From assembly GCF_026262505.1 (NCBI RefSeq), contig NC_067203.1, forward strand, positions 22,549,411 through 22,613,410: a stretch of DNA of 64,000 nucleotides. The letters are read 5' to 3'. Both the position numbers and the translations under genes were made by a program. A model generated the notes under the pieces. The model saw only the letters and a list, made by a program, of their open reading frames with translations. It made no database searches and was not told the DNA's origin. This DNA is from Trichomonas vaginalis G3. Taxonomy: Eukaryota; Parabasalia; Trichomonadida; Trichomonadidae. This document shows, piece after piece, positions 16,533 through 50,233 of this stretch (its first letter is position 1; each line of letters starts with the position of its first letter).

Positions 16533-17147
16533 ATGACAAACATTGAGTTTGAAACAGTTAAAAAGATAGACAATGACACCAAAGTGGTTAGAATTGGTGA
16601 TTTAAACGTAAGATACTCAAAGAAATACAACAAATATTCTTTGTCAGACATTATATCTCCATCTGGAAAGAAAACATCCCACGACTGGGTTAGAATTGCT
16701 TCTACTCAGAAAATTTTGACAAGAAATCCTGAGCTTATGATATCGGTAAGATTCTATGGAACTACAGCATATCTTATAGACAAAAGTCTTATACCAATAG
16801 TTTTGTTATGGATTGACCCAGTTGTTGGATATAACTTCATAACATATGGTTCATTCGATACGGAACGTTGCAGTGAAGGCTTACTTTACATCGTTCAGAA
16901 ACCGAAGGACTTCAATACAAAGAGATATAAGATAGGAAGAACATATAATATAACTCTAAGATATGACAGTATAGTCAATAGAGTCAAGGTTGTGTTTGTT
17001 AACGATATGAGAGCTGCAGAAACAGAACTACTTGAAAAGTTTGAGAAAATGTATGGTGCTCCCACGAAAGGTAAAGAAACGTTTGAAGTAGATGAGATAG
17101 GTAAAGCTATAAAATTATTTGACGAAGTTGCTGAAAAATACATGTAA
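16533..17147 (+). CDS. KilA-N / T5orf172 (GIY-YIG-like) DNA-binding protein
   Basis: Intact 204 residues. The N-terminal half has a KilA-N type DNA-binding region (YSLSDIISPSGKKTSHDWVR, about residues 35-54). From about residue 115 comes a T5orf172/MUG113 domain, a relative of GIY-YIG nucleases: LLYIVQ, then YKIGRT, LRYDS, and ETELLEKFEK. This domain pair is typical of large DNA viruses and phages and suggests regulation or nicking of DNA; the active-site set was not checked beyond these motifs. The ATG follows ATTTTGTATGTAAGAAACAG, a leader shared with the KilA-N gene of E2 (before 29997). It ends about 105 bp before the satellite. Confidence 0.82.
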   Translation: MTNIEFETVKKIDNDTKVVRIGDLNVRYSKKYNKYSLSDIISPSGKKTSHDWVRIASTQKILTRNPELMISVRFYGTTAYLIDKSLIPIVLLWIDPVVGYNFITYGSFDTERCSEGLLYIVQKPKDFNTKRYKIGRTYNITLRYDSIVNRVKVVFVNDMRAAETELLEKFEKMYGAPTKGKETFEVDEIGKAIKLFDEVAEKYM

Positions 17148-17252
17148 AGCGTTTATTTTTACGCTTGACTTCAGATGGCTCAGGTAGTTCCTAACTAGCT
17201 CATTTATCTCTATAAGGTAGATTGCCTCATCTGCTGGGTCTATGTCGGTCAT
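17148..17252 (-). pseudogene. 5' stump of the gene that is complete at 43216-43581
   Basis: Reading leftward from the ATG at 17252 gives MTDIDPADEAIYLIEINELV, matching the start of the intact E3 protein (MVEVEPTDEAIYLIELNELV). Similarity ends after about 25 codons, where the frame runs into the 3' end of the KilA-N gene. The rest has been deleted. The 22-bp satellite begins 2 bp upstream of this ATG. Confidence 0.75.
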
Positions 17253-17253
17253 T

Positions 17254-20200
17254 GTTTCAAGACAAGTCTTTTACTTTTTCAAGACAAGTCTTTTACTTTT
17301 TCAAGACAAGTCTTTTACTTTTTCAAGACAAGTCTTTCTTTTTCAAGACAAGTCTTTTACTTTTTCAAGACAAGTCTTTTACTTTTTCAAGACAAGTCTT
17401 TTACTTTTTCAAGACAAGTCTTTTACTTTTTCAAGACAAGTCTTTTACTTTTTCAAGACAAGTCTTTTACTTTTTCAAGACAAGTCTTTTACTTTTTCAA
17501 GACAAGTCTTTTACTTTTTCAAGACAAGTCTTTTACTTTTTCAAGACAAGTCTTTTACTTTTTCAAGACAAGTCTTTTACTTTTTCAAGACAAGTCTTTT
17601 ACTTTTTCAAGACAAGTCTTTTACTTTTTCAAGACAAGTCTTTTACTTTTTCAAGACAAGTCTTTTACTTTTTCAAGACAAGTCTTTTACTTTTTCAAGA
17701 CAAGTCTTTTACTTTTTCAAGACAAGTCTTTTACTTTTTCAAGACAAGTCTTTTACTTTTTCAAGACAAGTCTTTTACTTTTTCAAGACAAGTCTTTTAC
17801 TTTTTCAAGACAAGTCTTTTACTTTTTCAAGACAAGTCTTTTACTTTTTCAAGACAAGTCTTTTACTTTTTCAAGACAAGTCTTTTACTTTTTCAAGACA
17901 AGTCTTTTACTTTTTCAAGACAAGTCTTTTACTTTTTCAAGACAAGTCTTTTACTTTTTCAAGACAAGTCTTTTACTTTTTCAAGACAAGTCTTTTACTT
18001 TTTCAAGACAAGTCTTTTACTTTTTCAAGACAAGTCTTTTACTTTTTCAAGACAAGTCTTTTACTTTTTCAAGACAAGTCTTTTACTTTTTCAAGACAAG
18101 TCTTTTACTTTTTCAAGACAAGTCTTTTACTTTTTCAAGACAAGTCTTTTACTTTTTCAAGACAAGTCTTTTACTTTTTCAAGACAAGTCTTTTACTTTT
18201 TCAAGACAAGTCTTTTACTTTTTCAAGACAAGTCTTTTACTTTTTCAAGACAAGTCTTTTACTTTTTCAAGACAAGTCTTTTACTTTTTCAAGACAAGTC
18301 TTTTACTTTTTCAAGACAAGTCTTTTACTTTTTCAAGACAAGTCTTTTACTTTTTCAAGACAAGTCTTTTACTTTTTCAAGACAAGTCTTTTACTTTTTC
18401 AAGACAAGTCTTTTACTTTTTCAAGACAAGTCTTTTACTTTTTCAAGACAAGTCTTTTACTTTTTCAAGACAAGTCTTTTACTTTTTCAAGACAAGTCTT
18501 TTACTTTTTCAAGACAAGTCTTTTACTTTTTCAAGACAAGTCTTTTACTTTTTCAAGACAAGTCTTTTACTTTTTCAAGACAAGTCTTTTACTTTTTCAA
18601 GACAAGTCTTTTACTTTTTCAAGACAAGTCTTTTACTTTTTCAAGACAAGTCTTTTACTTTTTCAAGACAAGTCTTTTACTTTTTCAAGACAAGTCTTTT
18701 ACTTTTTCAAGACAAGTCTTTTACTTTTTCAAGACAAGTCTTTTACTTTTTCAAGACAAGTCTTTTACTTTTTCAAGACAAGTCTTTTACTTTTTCAAGA
18801 CAAGTCTTTTACTTTTTCAAGACAAGTCTTTTACTTTTTCAAGACAAGTCTTTTACTTTTTCAAGACAAGTCTTTTACTTTTTCAAGACAAGTCTTTTAC
18901 TTTTTCAAGACAAGTCTTTTACTTTTTCAAGACAAGTCTTTTACTTTTTCAAGACAAGTCTTTTACTTTTTCAAGACAAGTCTTTTACTTTTTCAAGACA
19001 AGTCTTTTACTTTTTCAAGACAAGTCTTTTACTTTTTCAAGACAAGTCTTTTACTTTTTCAAGACAAGTCTTTTACTTTTTCAAGACAAGTCTTTTACTT
19101 TTTCAAGACAAGTCTTTTACTTTTTCAAGACAAGTCTTTTACTTTTTCAAGACAAGTCTTTTACTTTTTCAAGACAAGTCTTTTACTTTTTCAAGACAAG
19201 TCTTTTACTTTTTCAAGACAAGTCTTTTACTTTTTCAAGACAAGTCTTTTACTTTTTCAAGACAAGTCTTTTACTTTTTCAAGACAAGTCTTTTACTTTT
19301 TCAAGACAAGTCTTTTACTTTTTCAAGACAAGTCTTTTACTTTTTCAAGACAAGTCTTTTACTTTTTCAAGACAAGTCTTTTACTTTTTCAAGACAAGTC
19401 TTTTACTTTTTCAAGACAAGTCTTTTACTTTTTCAAGACAAGTCTTTTACTTTTTCAAGACAAGTCTTTTACTTTTTCAAGACAAGTCTTTTACTTTTTC
19501 AAGACAAGTCTTTTACTTTTTCAAGACAAGTCTTTTACTTTTTCAAGACAAGTCTTTTACTTTTTCAAGACAAGTCTTTTACTTTTTCAAGACAAGTCTT
19601 TTACTTTTTCAAGACAAGTCTTTTACTTTTTCAAGACAAGTCTTTTACTTTTTCAAGACAAGTCTTTTACTTTTTCAAGACAAGTCTTTTACTTTTTCAA
19701 GACAAGTCTTTTACTTTTTCAAGACAAGTCTTTTACTTTTTCAAGACAAGTCTTTTACTTTTTCAAGACAAGTCTTTTACTTTTTCAAGACAAGTCTTTT
19801 ACTTTTTCAAGACAAGTCTTTTACTTTTTCAAGACAAGTCTTTTACTTTTTCAAGACAAGTCTTTTACTTTTTCAAGACAAGTCTTTTACTTTTTCAAGA
19901 CAAGTCTTTTACTTTTTCAAGACAAGTCTTTTACTTTTTCAAGACAAGTCTTTTACTTTTTCAAGACAAGTCTTTTACTTTTTCAAGACAAGTCTTTTAC
20001 TTTTTCAAGACAAGTCTTTTACTTTTTCAAGACAAGTCTTTTACTTTTTCAAGACAAGTCTTTTACTTTTTCAAGACAAGTCTTTTACTTTTTCAAGACA
20101 AGTCTTTTACTTTTTCAAGACAAGTCTTTTACTTTTTCAAGACAAGTCTTTTACTTTTTCAAGACAAGTCTTTTACTTTTTCAAGACAAGTCTTTTACTT

Positions 20201-23200
20201 TTTCAAGACAAGTCTTTTACTTTTTCAAGACAAGTCTTTTACTTTTTCAAGACAAGTCTTTTACTTTTTCAAGACAAGTCTTTTACTTTTTCAAGACAAG
20301 TCTTTTACTTTTTCAAGACAAGTCTTTTACTTTTTCAAGACAAGTCTTTTACTTTTTCAAGACAAGTCTTTTACTTTTTCAAGACAAGTCTTTTACTTTT
20401 TCAAGACAAGTCTTTTACTTTTTCAAGACAAGTCTTTTACTTTTTCAAGACAAGTCTTTTACTTTTTCAAGACAAGTCTTTTACTTTTTCAAGACAAGTC
20501 TTTTACTTTTTCAAGACAAGTCTTTTACTTTTTCAAGACAAGTCTTTTACTTTTTCAAGACAAGTCTTTTACTTTTTCAAGACAAGTCTTTTACTTTTTC
20601 AAGACAAGTCTTTTACTTTTTCAAGACAAGTCTTTTACTTTTTCAAGACAAGTCTTTTACTTTTTCAAGACAAGTCTTTTACTTTTTCAAGACAAGTCTT
20701 TTACTTTTTCAAGACAAGTCTTTTACTTTTTCAAGACAAGTCTTTTACTTTTTCAAGACAAGTCTTTTACTTTTTCAAGACAAGTCTTTTACTTTTTCAA
20801 GACAAGTCTTTTACTTTTTCAAGACAAGTCTTTTACTTTTTCAAGACAAGTCTTTTACTTTTTCAAGACAAGTCTTTTACTTTTTCAAGACAAGTCTTTT
20901 ACTTTTTCAAGACAAGTCTTTTACTTTTTCAAGACAAGTCTTTTACTTTTTCAAGACAAGTCTTTTACTTTTTCAAGACAAGTCTTTTACTTTTTCAAGA
21001 CAAGTCTTTTACTTTTTCAAGACAAGTCTTTTACTTTTTCAAGACAAGTCTTTTACTTTTTCAAGACAAGTCTTTTACTTTTTCAAGACAAGTCTTTTAC
21101 TTTTTCAAGACAAGTCTTTTACTTTTTCAAGACAAGTCTTTTACTTTTTCAAGACAAGTCTTTTACTTTTTCAAGACAAGTCTTTTACTTTTTCAAGACA
21201 AGTCTTTTACTTTTTCAAGACAAGTCTTTTACTTTTTCAAGACAAGTCTTTTACTTTTTCAAGACAAGTCTTTTACTTTTTCAAGACAAGTCTTTTACTT
21301 TTTCAAGACAAGTCTTTTACTTTTTCAAGACAAGTCTTTTACTTTTTCAAGACAAGTCTTTTACTTTTTCAAGACAAGTCTTTTACTTTTTCAAGACAAG
21401 TCTTTTACTTTTTCAAGACAAGTCTTTTACTTTTTCAAGACAAGTCTTTTACTTTTTCAAGACAAGTCTTTTACTTTTTCAAGACAAGTCTTTTACTTTT
21501 TCAAGACAAGTCTTTTACTTTTTCAAGACAAGTCTTTTACTTTTTCAAGACAAGTCTTTTACTTTTTCAAGACAAGTCTTTTACTTTTTCAAGACAAGTC
21601 TTTTACTTTTTCAAGACAAGTCTTTTACTTTTTCAAGACAAGTCTTTTACTTTTTCAAGACAAGTCTTTTACTTTTTCAAGACAAGTCTTTTACTTTTTC
21701 AAGACAAGTCTTTTACTTTTTCAAGACAAGTCTTTTACTTTTTCAAGACAAGTCTTTTACTTTTTCAAGACAAGTCTTTTACTTTTTCAAGACAAGTCTT
21801 TTACTTTTTCAAGACAAGTCTTTTACTTTTTCAAGACAAGTCTTTTACTTTTTCAAGACAAGTCTTTTACTTTTTCAAGACAAGTCTTTTACTTTTTCAA
21901 GACAAGTCTTTTACTTTTTCAAGACAAGTCTTTTACTTTTTCAAGACAAGTCTTTTACTTTTTCAAGACAAGTCTTTTACTTTTTCAAGACAAGTCTTTT
22001 ACTTTTTCAAGACAAGTCTTTTACTTTTTCAAGACAAGTCTTTTACTTTTTCAAGACAAGTCTTTTACTTTTTCAAGACAAGTCTTTTACTTTTTCAAGA
22101 CAAGTCTTTTACTTTTTCAAGACAAGTCTTTTACTTTTTCAAGACAAGTCTTTTACTTTTTCAAGACAAGTCTTTTACTTTTTCAAGACAAGTCTTTTAC
22201 TTTTTCAAGACAAGTCTTTTACTTTTTCAAGACAAGTCTTTTACTTTTTCAAGACAAGTCTTTTACTTTTTCAAGACAAGTCTTTTACTTTTTCAAGACA
22301 AGTCTTTTACTTTTTCAAGACAAGTCTTTTACTTTTTCAAGACAAGTCTTTTACTTTTTCAAGACAAGTCTTTTACTTTTTCAAGACAAGTCTTTTACTT
22401 TTTCAAGACAAGTCTTTTACTTTTTCAAGACAAGTCTTTTACTTTTTCAAGACAAGTCTTTTACTTTTTCAAGACAAGTCTTTTACTTTTTCAAGACAAG
22501 TCTTTTACTTTTTCAAGACAAGTCTTTTACTTTTTCAAGACAAGTCTTTTACTTTTTCAAGACAAGTCTTTTACTTTTTCAAGACAAGTCTTTTACTTTT
22601 TCAAGACAAGTCTTTTACTTTTTCAAGACAAGTCTTTTACTTTTTCAAGACAAGTCTTTTACTTTTTCAAGACAAGTCTTTTACTTTTCAAGACAAGTCT
22701 TTTACTTTTTCAAGACAAGTCTTTTACTTTTTCAAGACAAGTCTTTTACTTTTTCAAGACAAGTCTTTTACTTTTTCAAGACAAGTCTTTTACTTTTTCA
22801 AGACAAGTCTTTTACTTTTTCAAGACAAGTCTTTTACTTTTTCAAGACAAGTCTTTTACTTTTTCAAGACAAGTCTTTTACTTTTTCAAGACAAGTCTTT
22901 TACTTTTTCAAGACAAGTCTTTTACTTTTTCAAGACAAGTCTTTTACTTTTTCAAGACAAGTCTTTTACTTTTTCAAGACAAGTCTTTTACTTTTTCAAG
23001 ACAAGTCTTTTACTTTTTCAAGACAAGTCTTTTACTTTTTCAAGACAAGTCTTTTACTTTTTCAAGACAAGTCTTTTACTTTTTCAAGACAAGTCTTTTA
23101 CTTTTTCAAGACAAGTCTTTTACTTTTTCAAGACAAGTCTTTTACTTTTTCAAGACAAGTCTTTTACTTTTTCAAGACAAGTCTTTTACTTTTTCAAGAC

Positions 23201-26200
23201 AAGTCTTTTACTTTTTCAAGACAAGTCTTTTACTTTTTCAAGACAAGTCTTTTACTTTTTCAAGACAAGTCTTTTACTTTTTCAAGACAAGTCTTTTACT
23301 TTTTCAAGACAAGTCTTTTACTTTTCAAGACAAGTCTTTTACTTTTTCAAGACAAGTCTTTTACTTTTTCAAGACAAGTCTTTTACTTTTTCAAGACAAG
23401 TCTTTTACTTTTTCAAGACAAGTCTTTTACTTTTTCAAGACAAGTCTTTTACTTTTTCAAGACAAGTCTTTTACTTTTTCAAGACAAGTCTTTTACTTTT
23501 TCAAGACAAGTCTTTTACTTTTTCAAGACAAGTCTTTTACTTTTTCAAGACAAGTCTTTTACTTTTTCAAGACAAGTCTTTTACTTTTTCAAGACAAGTC
23601 TTTTACTTTTTCAAGACAAGTCTTTTACTTTTTCAAGACAAGTCTTTTACTTTTTCAAGACAAGTCTTTTACTTTTTCAAGACAAGTCTTTTACTTTTTC
23701 AAGACAAGTCTTTTCTTTTTCAAGACAAGTCTTTTACTTTTTCAAGACAAGTCTTTTACTTTTTCAAGACAAGTCTTTTACTTTTTCAAGACAAGTCTTT
23801 TACTTTTCAAGACAAGTCTTTTACTTTTTCAAGACAAGTCTTTTACTTTTTTCAAGACAAGTCTTTTACTTTTTCAAGACAAGTCTTTTACTTTTTCAAG
23901 ACAAGTCTTTTACTTTTTCAAGACAAGTCTTTTACTTTTTCAAGACAAGTCTTTTACTTTTTCAAGACAAGTCTTTTACTTTTTCAAGACAAGTCTTTTA
24001 CTTTTTCAAGACAAGTCTTTTACTTTTTCAAGACAAGTCTTTTACTTTTTCAAGACAAGTCTTTTACTTTTTCAAGACAAGTCTTTTACTTTTTCAAGAC
24101 AAGTCTTTTACTTTTTCAAGACAAGTCTTTTACTTTTTCAAGACAAGTCTTTTACTTTTTCAAGACAAGTCTTTTACTTTTTCAAGACAAGTCTTTTACT
24201 TTTTCAAGACAAGTCTTTTACTTTTTCAAGACAAGTCTTTTACTTTTTCAAGACAAGTCTTTTACTTTTTCAAGACAAGTCTTTTACTTTTTCAAGACAA
24301 GTCTTTTACTTTTTCAAGACAAGTCTTTTACTTTTTCAAGACAAGTCTTTTACTTTTTCAAGACAAGTCTTTTACTTTTTCAAGACAAGTCTTTTACTTT
24401 TTCAAGACAAGTCTTTTACTTTTTCAAGACAAGTCTTTTACTTTTTCAAGACAAGTCTTTTACTTTTTCAAGACAAGTCTTTTACTTTTTCAAGACAAGT
24501 CTTTTACTTTTTCAAGACAAGTCTTTTACTTTTTCAAGACAAGTCTTTTACTTTTTCAAGACAAGTCTTTTACTTTTTCAAGACAAGTCTTTTACTTTTT
24601 CAAGACAAGTCTTTTACTTTTTCAAGACAAGTCTTTTACTTTTTCAAGACAAGTCTTTTACTTTTTCAAGACAAGTCTTTTACTTTTTCAAGACAAGTCT
24701 TTTACTTTTTCAAGACAAGTCTTTTACTTTTTCAAGACAAGTCTTTTACTTTTTCAAGACAAGTCTTTTACTTTTTCAAGACAAGTCTTTTACTTTTTCA
24801 AGACAAGTCTTTTACTTTTTCAAGACAAGTCTTTTACTTTTTCAAGACAAGTCTTTTACTTTTTCAAGACAAGTCTTTTACTTTTTCAAGACAAGTCTTT
24901 ACTTTTTCAAGACAAGTCTTTTACTTTTTCAAGACAAGTCTTTTACTTTTTCAAGACAAGTCTTTTACTTTTTCAAGACAAGTCTTTTACTTTTTCAAGA
25001 CAAGTCTTTTACTTTTTCAAGACAAGTCTTTTACTTTTTCAAGACAAGTCTTTTACTTTTTCAAGACAAGTCTTTTACTTTTTCAAGACAAGTCTTTTAC
25101 TTTTTCAAGACAAGTCTTTTACTTTTTCAAGACAAGTCTTTTACTTTTTCAAGACAAGTCTTTTACTTTTTCAAGACAAGTCTTTTACTTTTTCAAGACA
25201 AGTCTTTTACTTTTTCAAGACAAGTCTTTTACTTTTTCAAGACAAGTCTTTTACTTTTTCAAGACAAGTCTTTTACTTTTTCAAGACAAGTCTTTTACTT
25301 TTTCAAGACAAGTCTTTTACTTTTTCAAGACAAGTCTTTTACTTTTTCAAGACAAGTCTTTTACTTTTTCAAGACAAGTCTTTTACTTTTTCAAGACAAG
25401 TCTTTTACTTTTTCAAGACAAGTCTTTTACTTTTTCAAGACAAGTCTTTTACTTTTTCAAGACAAGTCTTTTACTTTTTCAAGACAAGTCTTTTACTTTT
25501 TCAAGACAAGTCTTTTACTTTTTCAAGACAAGTCTTTTACTTTTTCAAGACAAGTCTTTTACTTTTTCAAGACAAGTCTTTTACTTTTTCAAGACAAGTC
25601 TTTTACTTTTTCAAGACAAGTCTTTTACTTTTTCAAGACAAGTCTTTTACTTTTTCAAGACAAGTCTTTTACTTTTTCAAGACAAGTCTTTTACTTTTTC
25701 AAGACAAGTCTTTTACTTTTTCAAGACAAGTCTTTTACTTTTTCAAGACAAGTCTTTTACTTTTTCAAGACAAGTCTTTTACTTTTTCAAGACAAGTCTT
25801 TTACTTTTTCAAGACAAGTCTTTTACTTTTTCAAGACAAGTCTTTTACTTTTTCAAGACAAGTCTTTTACTTTTTCAAGACAAGTCTTTTACTTTTTCAA
25901 GACAAGTCTTTTACTTTTTCAAGACAAGTCTTTTACTTTTTCAAGACAAGTCTTTTACTTTTTCAAGACAAGTCTTTTACTTTTTCAAGACAAGTCTTTT
26001 ACTTTTTCAAGACAAGTCTTTTACTTTTTCAAGACAAGTCTTTTACTTTTTCAAAGCAAGTCTTTTACTTTTTCAAGACAAGTCTTTTTACTTTTTCAAG
26101 ACAAGTCTTTTACTTTTTCAAGACAAGTCTTTTACTTTTTCAAGACAAGTCTTTTACTTTTTCAAGACAAGTCTTTTACTTTTTCAAGACAAGTCTTTTA

Positions 26201-26414
26201 CTTTTTCAAGACAAGTCTTTTACTTTTTCAAGACAAGTCTTTTACTTTTTCAAGACAAGTCTTTTACTTTTTCAAGACAAGTCTTTTACTTTTTCAAGAC
26301 AAGTCTTTTACTTTTTCAAGACAAGTCTTTTACTTTTTCAAGACAAGTCTTTTACTTTTTCAAGACAAGTCTTTTACTTTTTCAAGACAAGTCTTTTACT
26401 TTTTCAAGACAAGT
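17254..26414. repeat. Satellite: about 415 copies of a 22-bp unit
   Basis: Unit core TTTTTCAAGACAAGTCTTTT plus two bases, period 22. The first 5.4 kb is essentially uniform after one short unit near 17332; single-base length variants then occur near 22685, 23320, 23710, 23805, 23850, 24895 and 26085, and one base swap near 26055. Each unit holds the inverted repeat AAGAC-AA-GTCTT. The array ends at an N gap, so its true size is unknown. All three plus frames are open only because the unit has no stop on this strand and 22 is not a multiple of 3. Confidence 0.97.
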
Positions 26415-26439
26415 NNNNNNNNNNNNNNNNNNNNNNNNN
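26415..26439. other. Assembly gap, 25 N
   Basis: 25 consecutive N at the end of the satellite. Sequence to the right begins with inverted-orientation Maverick repeats. Gap size and join are not supported by sequence. Confidence 0.99.
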
Positions 26440-29339: not shown

Positions 29340-29997
29340 TACTCACAATATTTTTGTACAAAACGACCCCAAACTTTTAACTTCTTTTCTGCACTTCAAA
29401 TGCTATCTTAGCGAGTTCATATTCTCTAAATTCTCTCTTTAAATTCTGCTTTCCCATTGGTCTAGTTCGTATGGAGAATCTTTAATAACCATAACACATC
29501 TCATGTTCATGTTCTATTTGTTTTTCATCATTTTTCTAACTTCTTGTTCGAACAAAAAGTTTAGCATTCTCTACTGTATCTTCCAGTTCTTCTTCATCTA
29601 ATTTCTCATCAACTTTCGTGCTATGAGATCCATAATTTTTCCAACTGCTATGCAATATTTTGGAGAAGCCCACATTGCTATATAGTTTATAAGTCTTGGG
29701 TCTACATACGTTCCTCTAACCTGTTTGATTTCATCTGGAATTCCTGCATGAATTTTGTATAAAAACCAACCGCCGGAATTCCGGCGGTTGCTATATTCTT
29801 CACAAAATGCCTTATAATACTCTTCCCAACTTATTTTCCAACAAACTTTCTAAAGTCTTTTCCTAAACTCTGACACATATTTGTTACATTATATAACCAT
29901 CCTTGTCTCTACGTAAGACTTCAATACCGTTGTAAGTGCCTTTTGTGAATGTTTCGCCATTAGATTTGTTCGTGAACGTTTTTGCTTCGACTGACAT
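29340..29997 (-). pseudogene. KilA-N domain protein, degraded
   Basis: Starts MSVEAKTFTNKSNGETFTKG; then NGIEVLRRDKDGYI opens a KilA-N domain, and later pieces in shifted frames read WEEYYKAFCEEYSN, KQVRGTYVDPRLINYIAMW and SPKYCIAVGKIMDLIA, all typical of KilA-N proteins of viruses. An embedded palindrome at about 29768-29791 is part of the coding sequence (NRRNSGG). The leader TTTTGTATGTAAGAACAG is shared with 16533. Not present in E1 except as fragments. Confidence 0.75.
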
Positions 29998-30584
29998 TCT
30001 GTTCTTACATACAAAATAAAAAATATTTTTTTTAAAAACCAACTTTTTTTTTATTTCGGGAAAATTCATGAAAATTCAACGGGTGAAAAAACAGGTGAAA
30101 AAAAAGTGAGATCTCACCTCTTCACCTAAAATATATTTTTGCCGAATTCAGAACAAAACTCAGAGTTTTGGTTGAAAAAACAGGTGGAGCCAAAAGTGGC
30201 TCGACCTCAAAAACAAGGCATTTTGAAAGATATAGCAACCGCCGGAATTCGGCGCGTTGGTTTTTATACAAAATTCAACGGGTGAAAAATTAGGTGAAAA
30301 CAGGTGAGATCTCACCTCTTCACCTAAAATATATTTTTGGTTCATTTACACTCGTTACGATGAAGAAGTCTTGACATTTTCCCGACTGTTGTCAAAATGT
30401 CATGTTGTCACCATTTTCAAAAGATGTTAGTTGACGAGGGACCGAGGGACCGAGGGACCCCCTCAGTAAACATCTCATTTTAACTCACTTTTTTCTATCT
30501 TAAGGAAATTCATGAAAATTCAACGGTGAAAAAACAGGTGAAAAAAGAGGTGAGTATCTCACACTTTCACCTAAAATATATTTT
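29998..30584. repeat. Non-coding repeat mosaic
   Basis: Promoter-like TTTTTT/AAAA stretch before the KilA-N start, three GGTGAGATCTCACC-type modules (about 30105, 30305, 30540), one KilA-N-derived palindrome fragment (about 30236-30258), CCGAGGGA octamers (30433-30460) and segments shared with 13730-14100 in inverted form. Confidence 0.75.
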
Positions 30585-31439
30585 TCAATATTTTCAGCAC
30601 TTTTCCGTAGTTGTATATGAAAGGACAATTCGAGATAAAAGTCATAGTACAATGGTATTATATGCTGCACACCATTTGTGTGAACCAAACTTGAAAGTCA
30701 GAGAAAATGTTACTAGGTGGTTCGTAGAATTTAGAAGCAAAGTCATAAAGTCCTTACCGATACATAGAAAACTATTGTTGCTTGAACTGAAACTTGCATG
30801 ACACATAACATTTTGAGGGTCAAACACGTTTCTATAAACTGTCAAATCTGCTGGTGAAGTATAAATTTAAATGGACCATTCTGGTGGTAATGGTTCTTCT
30901 GGTTTAGTAACCGAAGAAATTGTGCCCAAGAACGTTTGTCACTTTCCAAAATAAAAACTCTGTATCTCTTGGAGGGTTAATTTCAAATCTTTTTGAAATG
31001 GAAACGGTGGAGTTCATCTTGTCATATTCTAGTTTCAGATAGTATGTTCCATTTAGTAAAGAGTCGTATTTTTCTTGAAATTCCCAATAGTATTTGTTCA
31101 TTTGAGTTTGAAAGTCATTTAGAGTTTTCTCAGACTTTCGTCTGAACGAACTGTAAAGATCCTCATTTCATCAAATTTGTCTATAAGACCATCAGAACTT
31201 TTATACTGCCCATGAAATATACTGCGAACATAAACGCGTTAGTTCTATTTGAAAACAAAACTCTTCTAAATCCTATTGCCTTTGCATCTGAAGGACTTGA
31301 AGCCAACGAACTGATAGTCAAACCTGTATGTTCGGGATGAAATTTCTTCATCTGAAATAGTCATACCAGCATTTGTAAAGATATAGTCTAACGGTTTTGT
31401 ATCTGCTACTTTTTGTTCTTGTTTTTCAACCTGAAGCAT
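30585..31439 (-). pseudogene. Structural protein paralogue B, frameshifted copy
   Basis: Inverted copy of 12786-13664. The N-terminus MLQVEKQEQKVADTKPLDYI is intact here, unlike in E1, but later indels split it (open pieces 30642-30845 and 30904-31101). Confidence 0.75.
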
Positions 31440-33720: not shown

Positions 33721-35711
33721 GCAATTCTATACCATGCGTAAACTGTCATGTAAGGTGGCATGTAGTCTTTACTTTGTGCCCGTTGTTTGCGTATATCCTG
33801 AAACGAAATGTGTATGGTTTCCTTCTCCCTGAGTGTCCCCCAGTAACAATTTATAGCAAACTTAACGTCGTCTTTAACATCATATCCTTTACCTTTTGTC
33901 ATTCCTGACCAATCCCAATATCTATGCTTATGCCAAACTGCTTGAGATGTACTTAAATCTATGTATGACTGTGTGCAGGTAAATTTTCACCTGAAATCGT
34001 TTTACTTCCACCTGTTTCCTTTGAAGAGTTTGCACAATACAAAAACCTGTCGACTATTTGTTCCCATGCACCAAACACCAAACATTACTTGAGGACCTCT
34101 TGCTTCCATAATGTATAAATAGAACCTACTGGTTCATTAAATCAAACATATGAGACATTACAGGATTGTCTCTTTTGAACTTAAAATATAGTGCAACTAT
34201 TTCAGGTTTCTTCTGGTTTGTGTCAGAATATTTTTTATAATATAATCTTATGTTTCAGGGTAGGTAAAATCTTGACTATAATATTTATTTCTGTCATCTA
34301 TATAATAGTATTCATTCTCGTTTTTTCTATTGCATTATATCTTTTATATCTATAAAAATCTAAATATAATGTAGCTTTTGTTCATCAATTGTGTGTTCTG
34401 TTGTCATCTCCATAGTCATAATAGTATGGTGCTTAGTCGTGGTGTACATGTCAGGCAATGTCATATCTGTCATTTCATAAACTCGGAAATATTTCTTTTG
34501 TTCGTCTCCATATAAGTTTAAGTAGCAGTTGTTTGTCTAATGGAATTTTAACTTGGTTACCATCGTTCTTTTTATAGCTTACATACATTTCATTGTTATT
34601 TTTCGGAATGAGTTTATTACCGTATTACCATTTTTTAAGGAATGTACAAACTGCCATCTAAAATATTTTTTTCTTCATTGAAAGAAAATCACCAACAATA
34701 GTTTCATATTTTTTGTTCCAACTAAACTTTGGTATATTTCATTGACATATGTTTTATCTGCTTTATTTTCAAGGCTAACGTTTAAGTCTGTTATTTCAGA
34801 AATGTATGTGTATGTCCAACGGCACTTTTCCTGTTTAAGGTTTCTTGTAAGTTTGCAATATTTGCAATGGTATGTGTATGTCCAACGTCACTTTTCCTTT
34901 TTAAGGTTTCTTGTAAGTTTGCAATATTTGCAATGTATGTGTATGTCCAACGTCACTTTTCCTGTTTAAAGTTAGTTGTAAGTTTGCAATATTTGCAATG
35001 GTATGTGTATGTCCAACGGCACTTTTCCTGTTTAAGGTTTCTTGTAAGTTTGCAATATTTGCAATGGTATGTGTATGTCCAACGGCACTTTTCTGTTAAG
35101 TTTCTTGTAAGTTTGCAATATTTGCAATGTATGTGTATGTCCAACGTCACTTTTCCTGTTTAAAGTTAGTTGTAAGTTTGTAATATTTGCAATGTATGTG
35201 TATGTCAACGGCACTTTTCCTGTTTAAGGTTTCTTGTAAGTTTGCAATATTTGCAATGGTATGTGTATGAGTCTTTTTAGAATATTCGTTTTCAGCTCTT
35301 GTCACTTCACTTGACATTTTATTGTCAACATATGTTTTGTCTGCTAGTTCAGGATGAGTATGTTCTTTTGTTGCTTAAGCTTTGTCAGCTCTTTCTTTTC
35401 TTTTTGCTATTGCATCGTCTACATATGTTTTGTCTGCTTTGTTGTCAACATCTGCTTTCAAAAGAAGTTCAGATATAGGTTTCTCGTTTAAAGTTCCTTT
35501 TGTTGGATTTATACAAACAGTATGGTTCTTATTGTCTTGAAACAGAAACTCATATGTCATGGGTTTAAAGTCAGTTTTAAGTTTCCTTCTTTCAATGACT
35601 CAGATATCTTAGAATAGTTTGAAAAAGTTTGTTGTGTTCTTATTTAGAGCTTGTATAATGAGTTGTCGGTTGTGTTTGTATTTCTCTCATAGACGCTGTT
35701 TCATTTGACAT
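33717..35711 (-). pseudogene. Fibre protein, long form, frameshifted
   Basis: Inverted fibre gene. From its start it has the conserved N-terminus, then about eight 66-bp shaft repeats (34800-35265, HTHTIANIANLQETLNRKSD type), then a domain also present in E4 (about 34200-34740) and the phage collar/tip at 33717-34110. So this copy has both modules that are separate or partial in E1 and E4. Many one-base indels. Confidence 0.8.
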
Positions 35712-43215: not shown

Positions 43216-43581
43216 TTACTGAACTGGTTGGATGTCGCCTTCTGAGGTTATGTAGAACGGCTGACCCGAGAAGTGGAACAGTGCTCTGAGAATTTGTATA
43301 ATTCGTGGAATTGGACTCTCTCTGTTTGGAAGTTGTATCCATGGGCGCTTTGCAAAGAACTTGAGAAGAGCTTCTTTCTTTGCTTGCTTTATGTCGTCGA
43401 AAGGAGTGCCTTCTGGTACCTCAATTGGAATTCCAGTCGAAATCTCGAGCTGAAGTGTAGACTTTCCCGTTATCCAACCGTTAACAAGCTTGCCTTTTAC
43501 ATTCTGCCTGAGGAAGTCTTTAACAAGCTCGTTAAGTTCAATGAGGTAAATTGCCTCGTCAGTAGGTTCGACCTCGACCAT
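43216..43581 (-). CDS. Conserved Maverick protein MVEVEP, 121 residues
   Basis: One of the few intact ORFs in E3, which suggests a recent or accurate copy. It has an acidic N-terminus (MVEVEPTDEAIYLIELNELV), then a mixed alpha/beta region with GWITGKSTLQLEISTGIPI and a helix KQAKKEALLKFFAKRPW, ending in TSEGDIQPVQ. There is no known family or catalytic motif. Its upstream region is the 21-bp tandem array; the homologous stump in E1 (17148-17252) has the 22-bp satellite at the same place. This fixed link suggests that the gene or its control region works with the repeats (inference), for example as a repeat-binding initiator. Confidence 0.75.
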   Translation of the reverse strand: MVEVEPTDEAIYLIELNELVKDFLRQNVKGKLVNGWITGKSTLQLEISTGIPIEVPEGTPFDDIKQAKKEALLKFFAKRPWIQLPNRESPIPRIIQILRALFHFSGQPFYITSEGDIQPVQ

Positions 43582-43582
43582 T

Positions 43583-43960
43583 GCTACTGTCAGTAAAAGT
43601 ACTGCTACTGTCAGAAAAAGTACTGCTACTGTCAGTAAAAGTACTGCTACTGTCAGTAAAAGTACTGCTACTGTCAGTAAAAGTACTGCTACTGTCAGTA
43701 AAAAGGAAAATTTGAGAGGGTTTTCGACGATAAAGTACTGCTACTGTCAGTAAAAGTACTGCTACTGTCAGTAAAAGTACTGCTACTGTCAGTAAAAGTA
43801 CTGCTACTGTCAGTAAAAGTACTGCTACTGTCAGTAAAAGTACTGCTACTGTCAGTAAAAGTACTGCTACTGTCAGTAAAAGTACTGCTACTGTCAGTAA
43901 AAGTACTGCTACTGTCAGTAAAAGTACTGCTACTGTCAGTAAAAGTACTGCTAGTAGCAG
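43583..43960. repeat. 21-bp tandem array, 16 units
   Basis: Unit core GCTACTGTCAGTAAAAGTAC, period 21: six units (43583-43697), a 35-bp interruption (GAAAATTTGAGAGGG...), then ten units to 43960. Each unit holds the inverted repeat TACTG-T-CAGTA. The array fills the gap between divergent genes 43216-43581 and 44002-44340. Confidence 0.95.
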
Positions 43961-44001: not shown

Positions 44002-44340
44002 ATGACTGACGTCCCACCAACCGAGTCCATTCCCAAACCAGAGGAACCTAAAGAACCACAACAGTCTCCTCAGCAACTTCAGTTCCAGCAAGTACCTCCG
44101 AATTACTACCAATTTCCACCTCAAGGTTACTACCCACCACAAGGCTTCCCGAACTACCCTCCTCAGCCTATGCCTTACTTCCCCAACCCTTGGTTGTTCC
44201 AGCAAGCTCCACCCCAGCAATTCCAATTCCAATCTCAATCGAAGAGAGACCAAGACTTCGAAGAAGGTCTGAACCGCTTACGCAAAGAGTATGCTACAGC
44301 TCCAATTGAGAGAAAGTTGTTCCCGGACCAAAAAATATAA
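44002..44340 (+). CDS. Pro/Gln-rich protein, 112 residues
   Basis: The ATG at 44002 (MTDVPPTESIPK) is chosen over the earlier non-ATG opening. Low complexity: PPQGYYPPQGFPNYPPQPMP, QFQ repeats, then a charged tail DFEEGLNRLRKEYATAPIE. Probably disordered; no family. TTTTTA lies near 43963, further away than usual. The last bases, GTTCCCGGACCAAAAAATAT, also occur in E1 at 14703-14723 next to a palindrome module, so its 3' end has been copied into the E1 mosaic. Confidence 0.65.
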   Translation: MTDVPPTESIPKPEEPKEPQQSPQQLQFQQVPPNYYQFPPQGYYPPQGFPNYPPQPMPYFPNPWLFQQAPPQQFQFQSQSKRDQDFEEGLNRLRKEYATAPIERKLFPDQKI

Positions 44341-45034
44341 TTTAGGTGAAGAGGTGAGATTTCACCTCTTTTTTCACCTGTTTTTTCACCCTCTTGAATT
44401 TTCATGAATTTTATATATTAATGTTTTCGTTAAGCCACTTTGTGCCGTCAGTCAGTCAGTCAGTTTAGGAAAGACTTTAGAAAGTTGTTGGAAAATAAGT
44501 CCTGGGAAGAGTATTATAAGGCATTTTGTGAAGAATATAGCAACCACCGGAATTCGGACTGTTGCTTTTTATACAAAATTCATGCAGGAAATTCTTGAGT
44601 TTTGGTTGAAAGAATACGGTGGAGCCAAAAGTGGCTCAACCTCAAAACAAGCATTTTATGAGCTTACTAAGGGCGTTATAAATGAATTCAAAGGTATTTA
44701 CATACATCCTGACCTCGTTCATTTTGTTGCTGAATTCAGCAAAAATAATGTTTAGGGTAGATGGTTAGATCTAACCTCATTTCTACCCTCTTGAATTTTC
44801 ATGAATTTTCATGAATTTTCATGAATTTTATATATTAATGTTTTCGTTAAGCCACTTTGTGCCGTCAGTCAGTCAATGAAATTTACACCAAAAATAATGT
44901 TTAGGTGAAGAGGTGAAATCTCACCTCTTTTTTCACCTGTTTTTTCACCCTCATGAATTTTCATGAATTTCCTTAAGATAGAAAAAATAAAGTTAGTTTT
45001 ATTTTTATTTATTTTTTTATTTTGTATAAAAGAT
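44341..45034. repeat. Palindrome modules and a KilA-N gene fragment
   Basis: GGTGAGATTTCACC (44353-44366), a GTCAGTCAGTCAGT run (44448 onward), then a KilA-N remnant at about 44463-44757: SWEEYYKAFCEEYSN, a decayed NRRNSGG palindrome (44540-44566), then KGVINEFKGIYIHPDLVHFV. After its stop follows GGTTAGATCTAACC, a changed palindrome that still pairs, and another module at 44903-44930. Repeated TTCATGAATTTTCATGAATT lies at 44795-44830. Confidence 0.75.
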
Positions 45035-45922
45035 ATGATTTCAACAATCGGCACAACAACAATTCAAACAACTACAGCACCAAACTCGTTAGTCATGAAT
45101 CCTACGTCAATGTTGGTAGAGATGAAAAGCTTTATTCCTTCTTCATATACTTTTGAAACAGAAATCCAGAAGATAAAGCAAGAACTTTTAACAAGTAATT
45201 TAGACTGTAGTGCGAAAGATGAAACAAATGAACAGTATCTTTATGAAATGGAGGACCTCATCGACCATTTGCCTAAACTACCTGAAATTCATCAGCAAAA
45301 ACTAACTATTCCTGAATTCGACGAAATTGAAGTCAAAGCAACTGACTCAGTAGAAATTAAGAAATTCATACGTAAAGTAAATTATGAATTCCTTGGTTTT
45401 CATTGCAACCATAAAGTTATGGACAAAGATTGCGACATGGTATATAAGAACATCTCTGACATATATAAATCTGGGGAGTTTAAGACATACGACAACTTTG
45501 TTTCATTAGTTGCAAAATGTGTATGGCAGATAAGAGATAAAGACAGAAGAGGTAAGGTATGGAATGAACAGATAAAACCAACTGCTTCAGATTTAAAGAA
45601 AGCCATTGACGCCTTAGTTGTTCTAGCTGGTAATGTTTCAATGTATAACGCAAAAACGATGCCGCAATGTTCAAAATGTAAGGCAGCAATAAGAAAATAT
45701 AACTACTCAGTCAAAGAGATAGAAAGAATGCGAAACGACTATGCAGACTTAAAGAAAGAAGCAGAAAAGCCAGCAGAAAATTAAATGGACATGTTAGCAT
45801 TTCTGAACAAAAACTATCCAACTGCTGACGATTTCCTTCTATCTGACGTCAAGAAGAAGTATAAAGAAACCTTCGGCATTGTTAAAACATTCGATGTACT
45901 AAAAGAAGAAATAGAAGAATAG
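45035..45922 (+). CDS. Homologue of the 304-residue conserved protein, with internal stop
   Basis: MISTIGTTTIQTTTAPNSLV start, then colinear with 14849-15763 including FHCNHKVMDKDC and CSKCKAAIRKYNY. At 45782-45784 a single A-to-T change turns the lysine codon of E1 into TAA; the frame resumes at once with ATG (MDMLAFLNKNYPTADDF) and runs to 45922, after which a frameshift precedes the conserved NIHRTIHVKRL ending. Many third-position differences from E1 show an older split than among the other copies, with protein sequence conserved, so selection acted on it. Confidence 0.75.
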
Positions 45923-46300
45923 AAGCTACGAAATTGTTTAGGATTTCAAATATACATCGTACAATTCATGTAAAACGCTTGTGAAAAAAGAGGTGAAATC
46001 TCACCTCTTCACCTAAAATATATTTTTATTGAATTCAGCACAAAATTCTGAGTAAAATAATTTTTAGGGCATGTGTCAAACCGTTGAGTTTTCACAAATT
46101 TTAAAAAATAACATTTACCATGTAAAACGCTTGTGAAAAAAGAGGTGAAAAAACAGGTGAAAAAAGAGGTGAAATCTCACCTCTTCACCTAAATTATATT
46201 TTTGCTGAAAAATGACTAAATTTCATGAATTTTCATAAAAGATAAAAATAAAGTTAGTTTTTATTTTTTCTAATTTTTTATCTTGTATGTAAGAACAGTA
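45923..46300. repeat. Non-coding, palindrome modules
   Basis: Two modules GGTGAAATCTCACC (45992-46005, 46165-46178) and poly-T promoter-like sequence before 46301. The last codons of the former gene (to about 45982) are also here. Confidence 0.65.
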
Positions 46301-46627
46301 ATGTCAACATCAGAGAACACAACAACAGTTATAGTCCATGAAGCTATAAATGAAGAATACGAGTAACAATACAGTATAACAAACAGTTACATCTCATTCG
46401 TTCAGTCAAAGACGATATATGTAACCAAATGCAAAGTATAATGAATGCTCTTCGTTCTACAAAGCAAGCATAATCATTGTTTTGAAAATACCAGACAGAC
46501 AAAAGAACTTTTAGAAGAATTTCCTCATATGATTGCTTCCCTCGAAAACACGAGAGAAGAGTTCGTACGAAAATCGTCAGAATTTGTCCTCCGGTTTGGA
46601 AATGGTTTTATATCAATAGACTTTTAG
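46301..46627 (+). pseudogene. Unknown small gene, degraded
   Basis: Starts MSTSENTTTVIVHEAINEEY after a TATGTAAGAACAGTA leader like those at 14840 and 16520, stops early, then continues in another frame to RFGNGFISIDF. No family recognised. Confidence 0.45.
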
Positions 46628-46686
46628 TAAAACGCTGTAGCCAATGTGGGGCTTCCCTCGTTTATGCTGTCTTTTATATTTTCATG

Positions 46687-47182
46687 ATGTTTAGAATGAA
46701 CCTATATAAAGCCGAGACAGTGGGAGAGATGGAACAACAAGCTTGGAAGCAAAAGACAAAAGCATTCATGAAAAGAATACCACGTTCGGTACCAAAAGTA
46801 AGGAAAAGAACTATAAGTATATGATTATACTGGAAGAATAATGTGAAGACACAGAAGATATGGTTATGTTGCATTTAGTCAGAATAAAAACAACAAAAAG
46901 CTTTTACGACCTTGCTAAGATTTACAAATCTGACAGAAATTGGTTCTATCGCGAAAAACTTACCGATTTCAATGACTCCCAAATGAAGATGTGAAACAAA
47001 TAGTTCAAGATACGTTACCTCAAACACACTATGATATTAAAGGTTGTACAATACTTAACATTCAAAGAAGACTTAACAGTTACTGGAAGAAGAATATAAG
47101 CAGTCAAGTCATTTCTTTGTACATCCTATCAACTAACAAGTGTATGAGTGGTAGATGCCACTCCTTTTTTTTCAAGTCTTGA
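46687..47182 (+). pseudogene. Unknown gene, degraded
   Basis: Pieces MFRMNLYKAETVGEMEQQAW, basic KRIPRSVPKVRKRT and KTTKSFYDLAKIYKSDRNW lie in shifting frames. Basic composition; no family recognised. It converges with the ATPase. Confidence 0.4.
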
Positions 47183-48032
47183 CATTTACAATTGAAACTT
47201 TGTTCGCATAGATATGAATTCTGAAGAAGTATGTAGGGTCTTGGTATGACTTTGTCACTCCTCCATAGTTCATGTCTGTCAAACTTATTCCTGCCATGGA
47301 CTCTTTCATAAGTTCCATGAAATCGTCTTCGACAATCCGGGGAAAAGTATTATGTCAGTAAGTATTTGTTTACATCCTTACTATAAACTCTTTGCTGTCT
47401 GTAACCAATATTACGACGAGATGTTAAAGTGTCTGAGCTTCTTAAGAATTCGACACATATCTTGTTCTCTTTTCTTTAAACAAAGGATGAAGAAGGCAAA
47501 TCATCTAAAGATAGAAGACATCTATGAGGGTAAGTCTTCCTTCGTAAGATTGCAATTTCTTCGAAATGTATTCTATCTCTTTTCTGTTTGTTTCTGAAGT
47601 GTTTTCTTTCTCTAATATTCTCTGCATTTCCTCATTTTAGGTCTTTAAAACTTAGAATTTATATACTCATTTATAGCATTACTACTTCAAAACTCTTCTT
47701 TGGTACTTCTTTATCCAATCTAAACATCAGTAATCCTTATATACATACTAAACTCGACTTCTTTATAATATCTTTGAACGAATTGACGGTTGGTCAATTG
47801 ACCGGAAGTACTAAAAGTACATACTAACTCATGAATGGGTTCTTCTCATCTAGTTCTTGTTGTTGTGCAGCATTTTAAGATAAAGTGAAAGTCTTACCAG
47901 ACCCAGGTGGTGGCAATTAGACCTGTTATACCATTTCTGAGCAAATAAGAACTGTGTCTGTTATAGGCTTTATCTGAGCATTTTTCTAACTTCACCTTGT
48001 TCTTCTTTCAAAACATTCTCAATTTTGTCATG
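47172..48032 (-). pseudogene. Genome-packaging ATPase (FtsK/HerA, A32-like), frameshifted
   Basis: Maverick packaging motor that would drive DNA into capsids. Walker A PPGSGKTFT is readable at 47888-47911 on the minus strand. Downstream pieces FSTSGQLTNRQFVQ and KKREQDMCRILKKLRHFNIS fit the Polinton ATPase layout, with the second just before the sensor strand. The C-terminal part is YANKVSIVNVKT. Length (about 285 codons) suits the family. At least eight indels. Start MTKIENVL-like at 48032, 59 bp from the divergent gene at 48092. Confidence 0.72.
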
Positions 48033-48091
48033 TCAGCAAACTTTTTTCTAACATTATTTTTAGAAAAATTAAAATTTTTTTCTTTAGAAAA

Positions 48092-48538
48092 ATGTCTAGC
48101 GATTCGCTATCTATATTCGAGACAAACTTTTGACAGCAAACCATCTGTCGACACATAAATCTTACATAGTGTAAACAAGAAAGGTGAATTTGTTCTAAAG
48201 TTCTTGTTTCTGGGGAATATGACAAGACATAAACCATTACAGAGAGAGTCTTAAAATTTGTCAATGACAGACTTGTTGACAGAGATGACGCGCATCTGGA
48301 AAGATGAAGTCCAACAAAATTCTTAGAATGCAAAGAAGACACATGCCTGTTCTTGAAGATGAAATAGAAACAGGAATAGATGAGCTATTAAAGGAACAAA
48401 GAACTTTTACACAAATATGGTTCTGAGAAATTTGACGTACTCCACCAGAAAAGAAGAAGAAAGAAAAGAAAGAGAAAAAAAGAAGAGAGAGAAAGAACCT
48501 GAACCAGTTCCAGAGAAGGGGAGATATGGACATGTAAA
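48092..48538 (+). pseudogene. Unknown gene with lysine-rich tail, degraded
   Basis: Starts MSSDSLSIFETNF; later pieces VLKFVNDRLVDRDDAHLER and GIDELLKEQRTFTQIW; ends with a long basic helix of Lys/Arg/Glu (about 48450-48500) and EPVPEKGRYGH. No family recognised. Divergent from the ATPase. Confidence 0.45.
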
Positions 48539-48940: not shown

Positions 48941-49006
48941 GTACTTGTTACTGAGATGAATTTGTCATCTTTTCATATCGGATAAAAAAATATTTTTTTT
49001 TAAATT

Positions 49007-50233
49007 TACTCAGAAAAATTTTCTTTGTATATACACCATTCCTGTAACGTCTAAAAGACTTTGACATTTGCCAAGAATGTTCGTTTAGAACTGCATATAA
49101 CCATATCTTTGACAATATTGTTTTATATCCAAATGACTTTTCATCTAAAAACAAAGTCAGTTTCATCTATGAACAGTTCATATACACTCTTGGTTTGCTT
49201 TCTAACAATGTTTGTCTCTCTTCGGTATGTGGAATTTGTCTTGGATTGAACTTTGAAAATATCTAATGTCATGAAATATGAGAACAAGTGGTTGTAAAAG
49301 TCAGATGTCAAAGTTTCTGCTAAGTCGTCAAAATTTCTGTATCTTGCATATGAGAATCTGACGTTCTGACAACTACATATCTTTCTGTCAGAACTTCTAA
49401 CTTCATCGGAACAGCATTGTTTTGAACCATAATGAAATTTTGCAACATTTTCCAAATCTTTTGTCTTTATATTTCTTTAACAACTCCAACTTTGTCTGTT
49501 ATAAGGACTCTCTTCAAAGCATCTGAGTTTCAAAACTTTTGTTGTATCTATACTTTGAAGTTCATTGCAAACTATAAGTTTCATATTCTCTATTGAAGAG
49601 TTAAATTTTACCGCAGATGTTTTCTAAGTTTGTCATATTAGGGTTCGATAACCTTCTAACAGTTTGCACAAAATATCTGTAAAGAAGTATTCTTACCTGT
49701 TCCTTGTTTTCCAATTATAATGAGAGCAGTTTCATTTTTAGCACATTGGATGTTGTAAGATGTTTGCAAACCAACATAAGATATACTCATAAACCTTTTC
49801 GTTTCCATTGCATATAATTTCTTTGACATGGTCTAACAAGCTTCTATAATACTTGTTCCATTCTCTTGTTCGTTATTTATATCCAGTGAAGATAGAATAG
49901 AAGTTTGGAGAAGGTGTATAGAACGTTTATACCTCGAACTGAAAAATCTTCTAACTTTGGACAATAAGATATCCCAGAGCAATCTAACATCTTGCATTCC
50001 AAACTTGAACACTTTTATTTTCTTAAGTTTGTCTACATTCTTGTTCAGAACTATTGTTGCTCTTGGTGTTGTTAAGACAACATCCCATTCTTCATGACAT
50101 AACATTCTGGGGCAAGAGTCAACATAAATGACTACCGTTTCAAATTCTCGACTGCTTTGTTAATGTCTCGAAATGGACACATATTTCTGAAATGTTTGGA
50201 AGTCATAAAAATTGAAACATCTATTCTGTACAT
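49007..50233 (-). pseudogene. SF3 helicase (DUF5906 / D5-like), frameshifted
   Basis: Replicative helicase of viral type. In order on the minus strand: MYRIDVSIFMTSKHFRNMCP start; Walker A ALIIIGKQGTGKN (49693-49725); Walker B-like KLIVCNELQ in another frame; LITDKVGVVKE; and a sensor segment FIMVQNNAVPMKLEVLTERY with the final YNHLFSYFMTLDI. This order and spacing are those of SF3 helicases with the GxxGxGKN loop. About 400 codons, several indels. TTTTTA-rich leader before the ATG. Such helicases are common in large DNA viruses; with PolB it would form the replication module. Confidence 0.75.

Follow-up and report, generated by a model that had tools for sequence, protein, structure and literature searches.

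Maverick elements, which are virus-like, were reportedly first described by Pritham et al. in 2007. In Trichomonas vaginalis, they account for ~73 Mb of the genome and carry KilA-N, primase, ATPase, PolB, and integrase genes, as given in PMC7845603 (genes in its Table 2). According to the same paper, only 25 of the 38,656 ORFs annotated as transposon ORFs (from Mavericks and Tvmar1 mariners) exceeded an expression threshold in RNA-seq of strain G3. Among the open-access papers listed, none describes internal array types in T. vaginalis Mavericks in its title or the opening of its abstract; CRISPR-like sequences in this organism are, by its title, the subject of PMC10696477.

Two systems outside this group resemble the locus reported here. 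In iteron plasmids and chromids, such as Vibrio cholerae ori2-min/ori2-inc (PMC6090056), direct repeats lie near a gene and a further array has a possible titration or copy-control role. The Cluster A mycobacteriophages have a repressor with operators and stoperators: there are many site copies per element, several specificities among relatives, and some sites away from promoters (PMC6550527). Specifically, we found direct repeats about two helical turns apart (21-22 bp), as in iteron replicons, and an array in a divergent regulatory region, as in repressor/operator cassettes. The systems also differ. The T. vaginalis array lies in an integrated element of a eukaryote, and family, PDB, and fold searches (the latter with a medium-confidence model) found no initiator homologue for the adjacent gene. 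In the phages, each site is 13 bp long and the sites are scattered across the genome (PMC6550527); by the title of PMC9283540, they are asymmetric, whereas the Maverick sites are 21-22 bp and in tandem. Finally, no repressor domain was recognised in the 121-aa Maverick protein.

The E3 array and its Maverick-like surroundings

The window is the whole 64,000-nt stretch of T. vaginalis G3 DNA that was analysed (contig NC_067203.1, here C1); genome-wide counts cover the 180.9-Mb assembly. The E3 array comprises 16 units of 21 bp, each with ≤5 mismatches, and has a TRF score of 469-591 over 43582-43953. A block of six units (43582-43707; starts 43582 to 43687) and one of ten (43739-43948; starts 43739 to 43928) are separated by a 31-bp spacer. 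The sixth unit is imperfect, with 4 mismatches, and is overlapped by 3 bp by the type A core. The dyad TACTG-N-CAGTA occurs at 15 places within the array, and the window contains no further copy whose central base is A or T. Genome-wide, the unit gave 1852+1865 matches (≤2 mismatches) as compared to 1 and 0 for the reversed pattern, so the array is not due to chance. It abuts the start codon (43581, minus) of the 121-aa gene, and is thus directly upstream of an intact homologue as the initial annotation had it, and lies 5' of the divergent proline/glutamine-rich (PQ) gene (Table 1).

Table 1. Features of the E1 and E3 regions, in window positions
Feature	Position	Strand	Remarks
T5orf172-domain gene	16533..17147	+	3' end borders E1 module 2
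Stump of homologous gene	17163..17252	-	MTDIDPADEAIYLIEINELVRNYLSHLKS; ends at module-2 junction
E1 type C array (gene-less module 2)	17255..26414	-	22 bp, ~416 copies
121-aa MVEVEP gene	43216..43581	-	Mosaic family; named relatives all Trichomonas vaginalis
Type A array (module 1)	43582..43953	-	21-bp units, two blocks; divergent intergenic region
Central core of type A array	43705..43732	-	TATCGTCGAAAACCCTCTCAAATTTTCC read on minus strand
Divergent PQ-rich gene	44002..44340	+	112 aa; shorter than the 192-aa copy in L043
KilA-N homologue in E3	46280..47074	+	tblastn
A32-like ATPase homologue in E3	47187..48156	-	tblastn, several frames
D5-like primase-helicase homologue in E3	49002..50233	-	tblastn, several frames

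The 121-aa protein gave no significant match in Pfam, PHROGs, NCBIfam, PDB, or a fold search; specifically, family searches revealed no significant match to a DNA-binding domain, and the fold search, based on a model of medium confidence (pLDDT 71), returned nothing at E ≤ 0.001. Its family is a mosaic with few alleles per block; the named homologues carry TVAGG3_ or TVAG_ locus tags, which belong to strain G3. Along the proteins (43216-43581; P0004-P0066), the allele blocks are combined in shuffled order, a pattern that points to frequent recombination among element copies. One database protein, P0043, translates a type A array as VLLLTVA heptads, which is likely an annotation artefact.

The elements that carry the arrays are Maverick-like. 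Around a type C array (L097, L098; array types are described below), the ORFs include a D5-like primase-helicase (DUF5906 1.5e-23, VapE-like 1.9e-11; PDB primase 6k9e, 3.2e-18) and, as expected of a Maverick, an A32-like packaging ATPase above the curated cut-off (Pox_A32 4.6e-07). The same surroundings encode KilA-N (1.2e-23), T5orf172, and HNH proteins and a Gp10_C/phage-tail-repeat protein. A 247-aa ORF resembled the retroviral-type integrase rve only at E 0.17, below the curated cut-off. A 717-aa ORF (L098:1832-3985, minus) had no Pfam or PDB match; as judged by eye, it has PolB-like motifs and may be a family B DNA polymerase. In E3, homologues of the KilA-N, ATPase, primase-helicase, and polymerase-like genes share 34-58% protein identity per tblastn piece with the type C element and stand in the same relation to the array. 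The KilA-N, D5-like, and A32-like genes around the array thus constitute the likeness to T. vaginalis Mavericks/Polintons.

Other repeats were observed in the window. Fibre-like genes matching phage-tail-repeat and Gp10_C contain 66-bp coding repeats (22 residues), with ~7 copies each at 34804-35269 and 63084-63556 and fewer in the gene at 8443-9840. Tandem repeats of 99 bp (33 residues) at 4280-4718 are presumably ankyrin-like, as judged by eye. The palindromic stretch AGGTGAAGAGGTGAGATCTCACCTC and its variants occur in several intergenic copies (13613-16003, 26902-30585, and 44298-46204).

Array types, their relatedness, and their linkage to the adjacent genes

Homologues of the 121-aa gene were collected by protein searches in separate rounds (30 + 30 + 16), giving 76 loci that are mainly the best-scoring, as each search scored 150 of 1292-1884 first-look candidates. 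Within 420 bp upstream, at least two array units were present at 75 of these 76 fetched loci; L016 has one. The initial annotation had stated that its proposal would fail if most homologues had no upstream array; this is not the case.

At the level of the sequence, the location of the arrays, their four types, and their shared plan are evident, as are the gene-less second copy and the mosaic junctions considered below. Type A has a 21-bp unit and lies upstream of genes starting MVEVEP. Type B has a unit of ~22 bp with GGAA...TTCC arms and lies upstream of MEELGMQER or MEGLGMPEG starts. Type C, whose 22-bp unit also makes up the E1 satellite, lies upstream of MTDIDP starts, and type D, with a different 22-bp unit, lies upstream of MDNIEP starts. 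A further tag, MELDPL, was found in two protein clusters, P0007 and P0047. Autocorrelation peaked at 21 bp for A and at 22 bp for B, C, and D, in agreement with the claim of about two-turn periods, and the arrays of E3 (type A) and E1 (type C) indeed differ.

The four types occupy one divergent position and mostly follow the plan array/AT-rich core/array. At the type C and D loci that were read, the array fills the gap between two divergent start codons. After removal of near-duplicates, our set had 86 rows, of which 29 were of type A, 23 of type B, 8 of type C, and 26 of type D; eight of the rows are stumps of the gene-less copy, or module 2. The exact core string was present in 77 of the 86; the core is truly absent from the type A arrays L015, L027, and L039, and present with small changes in L017 and L094. 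Genome-wide, with ≤3 mismatches, we counted 393 A, 970 B, 105 C, and 214 D cores (0 for the reversed-pattern controls), although the total of ~1,680 is not a strict count of arrays as some contain several cores. The C cores were exact over 30 bp in 93 of 105 cases. One type A array (G000:C1:26219367-26220224) has eight exact cores at short intervals, which is internal amplification of the core plus units.

The types were compared using shuffles of the consensus units, in all rotations and both orientations. The p values were 0.003 for A/D, 0.01 for C/D, 0.027 for A/C and B/C, 0.03 for A/B, and 0.26 for B/D. By orientation, C/D was best in the same orientation (0.0025) and A/D (0.003) and A/C (0.009) in the opposite one. 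For the central spacers, the better orientation gave 0.004 for A/B and B/D and 0.0125 for B/C (all opposite), 0.0075 for C/D (same), 0.067 for A/C, and 0.20 for A/D. All these values are uncorrected for six comparisons, take no account of low complexity, and are based on one AT-rich, near-palindromic sequence per type; as the cores are near-palindromes, the relative orientation of the types is ambiguous. Common ancestry is likely for several of the cores and for the C and D units; for the remaining units and cores, the comparisons are suggestive of it. The assertion that the arrays share no sequence is therefore doubtful given the C/D, A/D, and A/C unit values and the likeness of several cores, although for A and C, the pair of types present in the window, the similarity is weak. 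Similarly, independent birth of the arrays is unlikely: the types share position and plan, and several cores and the C/D units look related. We infer a common ancestry of all types and exchange of the arrays as cassettes.

Palindromic half-sites are poor evidence in this respect. When units of types A, B, and C were shuffled, 15-17% contained a dyad with 5-bp arms, and the type D unit has none; the 5-bp inverted half-sites highlighted in the initial annotation are thus no evidence on their own. The 7-bp arms of type B are unusual, being matched by 0.4% of shuffles.

Array type matched the class of the N-terminal tag in 85 of the 86 rows, the exception being L102, a stump with no tag readable in frame. 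Each tag class goes with one array type, and two classes go with type B. This link is established at the sequence level, as is a partial link with residues 19-37. The tag linkage is physical: tags lie within ~30 bp of the array, and dead stumps keep the pairing. With the tag as a proxy for the array, residue variation was analyzed in 64 proteins, 52 clusters with a readable tag (12 dropped). The tag explained 0.55-1.0 of the variation at residues 2-7, 0.23-0.34 at variable positions 11-18, and 0.19-0.77 at residues 19-37, with a peak at 25 and 29. After residue 40, 36 of the 48 variable positions were below 0.25 and the other 12 were at 0.29-0.45. Some mosaics with open frames break the rule: P0008, P0010, and P0024 have a D tag with A/B-like residues 19-37, P0050 has a C tag with D-like residues 19-37, and locus L044 behaves likewise. 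Accordingly, the proposed co-variation of array and protein holds for the tag and partly for residues 19-37, but the former reflects physical linkage and the latter has recombinants.

On the other side of the array, the commonest PQ start, MSDVPPTESIPKPEEP, was found with all types (A 13/25, B 6/16, C 2/7, D 13/29). The PQ and 121-aa starts are equally close to the array. The asymmetry in linkage between the two sides may be a lead; the samples differ, the loci having mostly been obtained with 121-aa queries.

A gene-less second copy of the array

We also examined 14 loci: 13 around type B cores, of which 10 were chosen for a nearby array, and one of type D. In 12 of these, the array lacks its genes and adjoins the 3' end of the A32-like ATPase gene; the other flank is the 3' end of KilA-N (11 loci) or T5orf172 (L104). 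The two exceptions are L110, a type B locus with readable genes, and L109, the type D locus, in which the 5' part of the gene was unmatched. A type C locus, L041, is a thirteenth gene-less case. Of the 13 gene-less cases, 12 have a readable PQ gene start and 12, all except L102, have a match to the start of the 121-aa gene.

The 3' stump of module 2 terminates at the junction GAGCCATCTGAAGTCAAGC. This sequence fits a type C gene (codons for ...LSHLKS) joined to sequence that forms the end of the ATPase gene. This fit suggests a single founding event with a type C module as its source, probably followed by exchange of the arrays. The junction occurs at 490 places genome-wide (246+244, ≤3 mismatches; control, 0).

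The E1 satellite belongs to this class. The order is T5orf172, the junction at 17163 (minus), the stump, ~416 type C units, and 25 N (26415-26439), a run that could represent either a gap in the assembly or withheld sequence. None of the four cores is present in the E1 array (17255-26414). The 9-kb satellite, composed of near-identical 22-bp units, grew out of the element's array. The initial annotation had placed the E1 array at the same gene position as that of E3, but the E1 stump ends at GAGCCATCTGAAGTCAAGC, the marker of the gene-less second copy of the module. That junction also rules out E1 as a decayed version of the E3 site.

In the 12 module-2 B loci, mean pairwise divergence was 0.071 on the PQ stump side, 0.050 in the 121-aa stump, 0.052 in the core flank, 0.041 at the KilA end (10 loci), and 0.016 at the A32 end. 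These arrays contain 4-16 B units. The units had 3.21 mismatches each in module 2 and 3.15 in module 1. Purifying selection on the module-2 arrays was not demonstrable in these 12 B loci, whose cores had been sampled by exact match.

Array spacing was evaluated using the exact-core places listed for contig C1 and for C2 up to 4.73 Mb, which yielded 192 merged arrays; pairs were counted in every order. Nineteen pairs fell within 3-6.5 kb (actual range, 3.4-6.0 kb) as compared to 4.4 ± 2.0 under uniform random placement, an expectation that ignores the clustering of elements. All 19 were on the same strand. There were four pairs at <3 kb (two on the same strand), one at 6.5-10 kb, and three at 10-20 kb, of which none shared a strand. 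With upstream and downstream defined by the direction of the 121-aa gene, the exact junction was found in seven of the 19 upstream members, and three of the remaining 12 (L041, L102, and L105) were confirmed as module 2 by reading; the others are presumably module 2 as well, with less confidence for that at C2:3935265, where a junction is on the opposite side of the array. Twelve of the 47 listed junctions are followed at 2.8-6.5 kb by a listed array, of type D in seven cases, A in four, and C in one; 17 of the 47 have no exact core beside them. At G000:C1:5246528-5248111 and C2:3933932-3938710, a type C array lies only 1.3-1.6 kb beyond a module-2 junction, a departure from the usual 3.4-6.0-kb spacing.

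The upstream members were of type B (15) or C (4) and the downstream members of type A (11), D (7), or B (1), such that the types differed in 18 of the 19 pairs. These counts cover exact cores only, and gene-bearing B arrays may occur in lineages without module 2. Moreover, like-type pairs may delete the intervening genes by recombination, which is a simpler reading of the unlike pairs. For these reasons, we do not read selection for difference into the counts.

In six module-2 loci, the 3' part of the A32 gene (115-128 C-terminal residues) is 99-100% identical at the protein level to that of the type C element. The partners of L099, L100, and L101 are of type A and those of L103, L104, and L106 are of type D; L045, the type A array paired with L101, has no adjacent 121-aa gene. 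The A32 match was lower in L102, L107, and L108 (57-100% per piece). Almost the same A32 3' part thus goes with type A partners at some loci and type D partners at others, so array type moves independently of that gene. The idea that array type is part of the element backbone is unsupported for the same reason.

Possible roles of the array

The reading that we favour, at a probability of about 0.42, is that the array is a set of cis-acting, iterated binding sites, that a factor of the element reads its own array type, and that the types are swapped as cassettes. The 21-22-bp sites, usually arranged in two blocks on either side of an AT-rich and near-palindromic core, would be in helical phase and part of the divergent promoter shared by the PQ-rich and 121-aa genes. 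An element-encoded DNA-binding factor would recognise its own type and control the element, in the manner of operators or copy-control iterons; the leading candidate is the 121-aa protein, acting through its first third. The gene-less copy 3.4-6.0 kb away would be a further docking site, and the types would have diverged from a common ancestor and been exchanged between elements as cassettes. Protein binding, the identity of the protein, its specificity for type, and an output in transcription or copy-number control are thus presumed. This reading is supported by the arrays at 75 of 76 homologue loci, by the plan and periods common to the four types, by the likeness of some units and cores, by the gene-less copy with its same-strand pairs, and by the B units of module 2 being no more decayed than those of module 1. 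Further support comes from type following the tag and partly residues 19-37, whereas the commonest PQ start goes with all types, and from the unlike partners of near-identical A32 3' parts. It is weakened by the lack of a DNA-binding match in the 121-aa protein in family searches and of a fold match with the medium-confidence model, by the type A arrays without a core, and by recombinant proteins whose residues 19-37 are the wrong ones for their tag. The failure to demonstrate purifying selection on module 2, in a sample with exact cores, and the comparison of types by single sequences also count against it. Moreover, with only 25 of 38,656 transposon ORFs above an expression threshold, the element genes may hardly be made.

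The main rival is neutral turnover, in which a repeat-prone promoter region undergoes slippage and gene conversion in recently amplified elements and the arrays have no function. It would account for the unrestrained expansion in E1, with ~416 copies and no core, and for variable unit numbers (4-16 B units per module-2 array) and arrays without a core. Consistent with it, dead stumps (0.050-0.071) and the core flank (0.052) diverge similarly, and the genes look mostly silent (PMC7845603). However, one plan and 21-22-bp periods are kept across four types, and an array is present at 75 of 76 homologues. The exactness of 93 of the 105 C cores argues in the same direction, although recent amplification would have the same effect. 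On balance, we consider neutral turnover unlikely but a serious competitor.

A role as a replication origin or packaging site, used by the primase-helicase or the packaging ATPase, appears improbable. The type C element does encode both a D5-like primase-helicase and an A32-like ATPase, the AT-rich near-palindromic core between direct repeats has the form of an unwinding or processing site flanked by iterons, and the gene-less copy lies between convergent genes. Nevertheless, near-identical A32 3' parts accompany module-1 arrays of different type. Moreover, protein-primed elements of this group probably start replication at their ends and would need no internal origin. Slightly less probable still is that the array is bound by a transcription factor of the host and serves as an enhancer or as a promoter for both directions, with repeats adding strength and types following host factors. 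The array fills the gap between divergent start codons at the type C and D loci read, as such a promoter would, but the gene-less copy lies between convergent 3' ends, where a promoter would serve no intact gene, and four recognition types in one host genome are hard to attribute to host factors. Finally, the array could be read as a coding repeat that would extend the 121-aa protein at its N-terminus by VLLLTVA heptads: in many type A copies, the gene's frame stays open into the repeats (open frames of up to 513 aa), and P0043 reads through them. We reject this reading because the 52-bp step across the spacer breaks the frame and because the 22-bp periods of types B, C, and D cannot code for a regular repeat.

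Under the binding-site reading, a broader possibility, which we regard as doubtful, is that Mavericks have a specificity system with at least four recognition groups in one nucleus, defined by an exchangeable array together with the N-terminal third of the 121-aa protein, and that many elements carry two unlike arrays. If such groups were real, they might be a mobile-element analogue, in a eukaryote, of plasmid incompatibility groups or phage immunity groups. As judged from their sequences, the clusters of sites suggest on-board docking sites for a protein, and the array types appear to have been swapped between Maverick elements. An array that switches type while keeping its plan, and that has a gene-less copy, offers a concrete cis element together with a candidate for the protein that binds it, a combination that can be tested in the tube.
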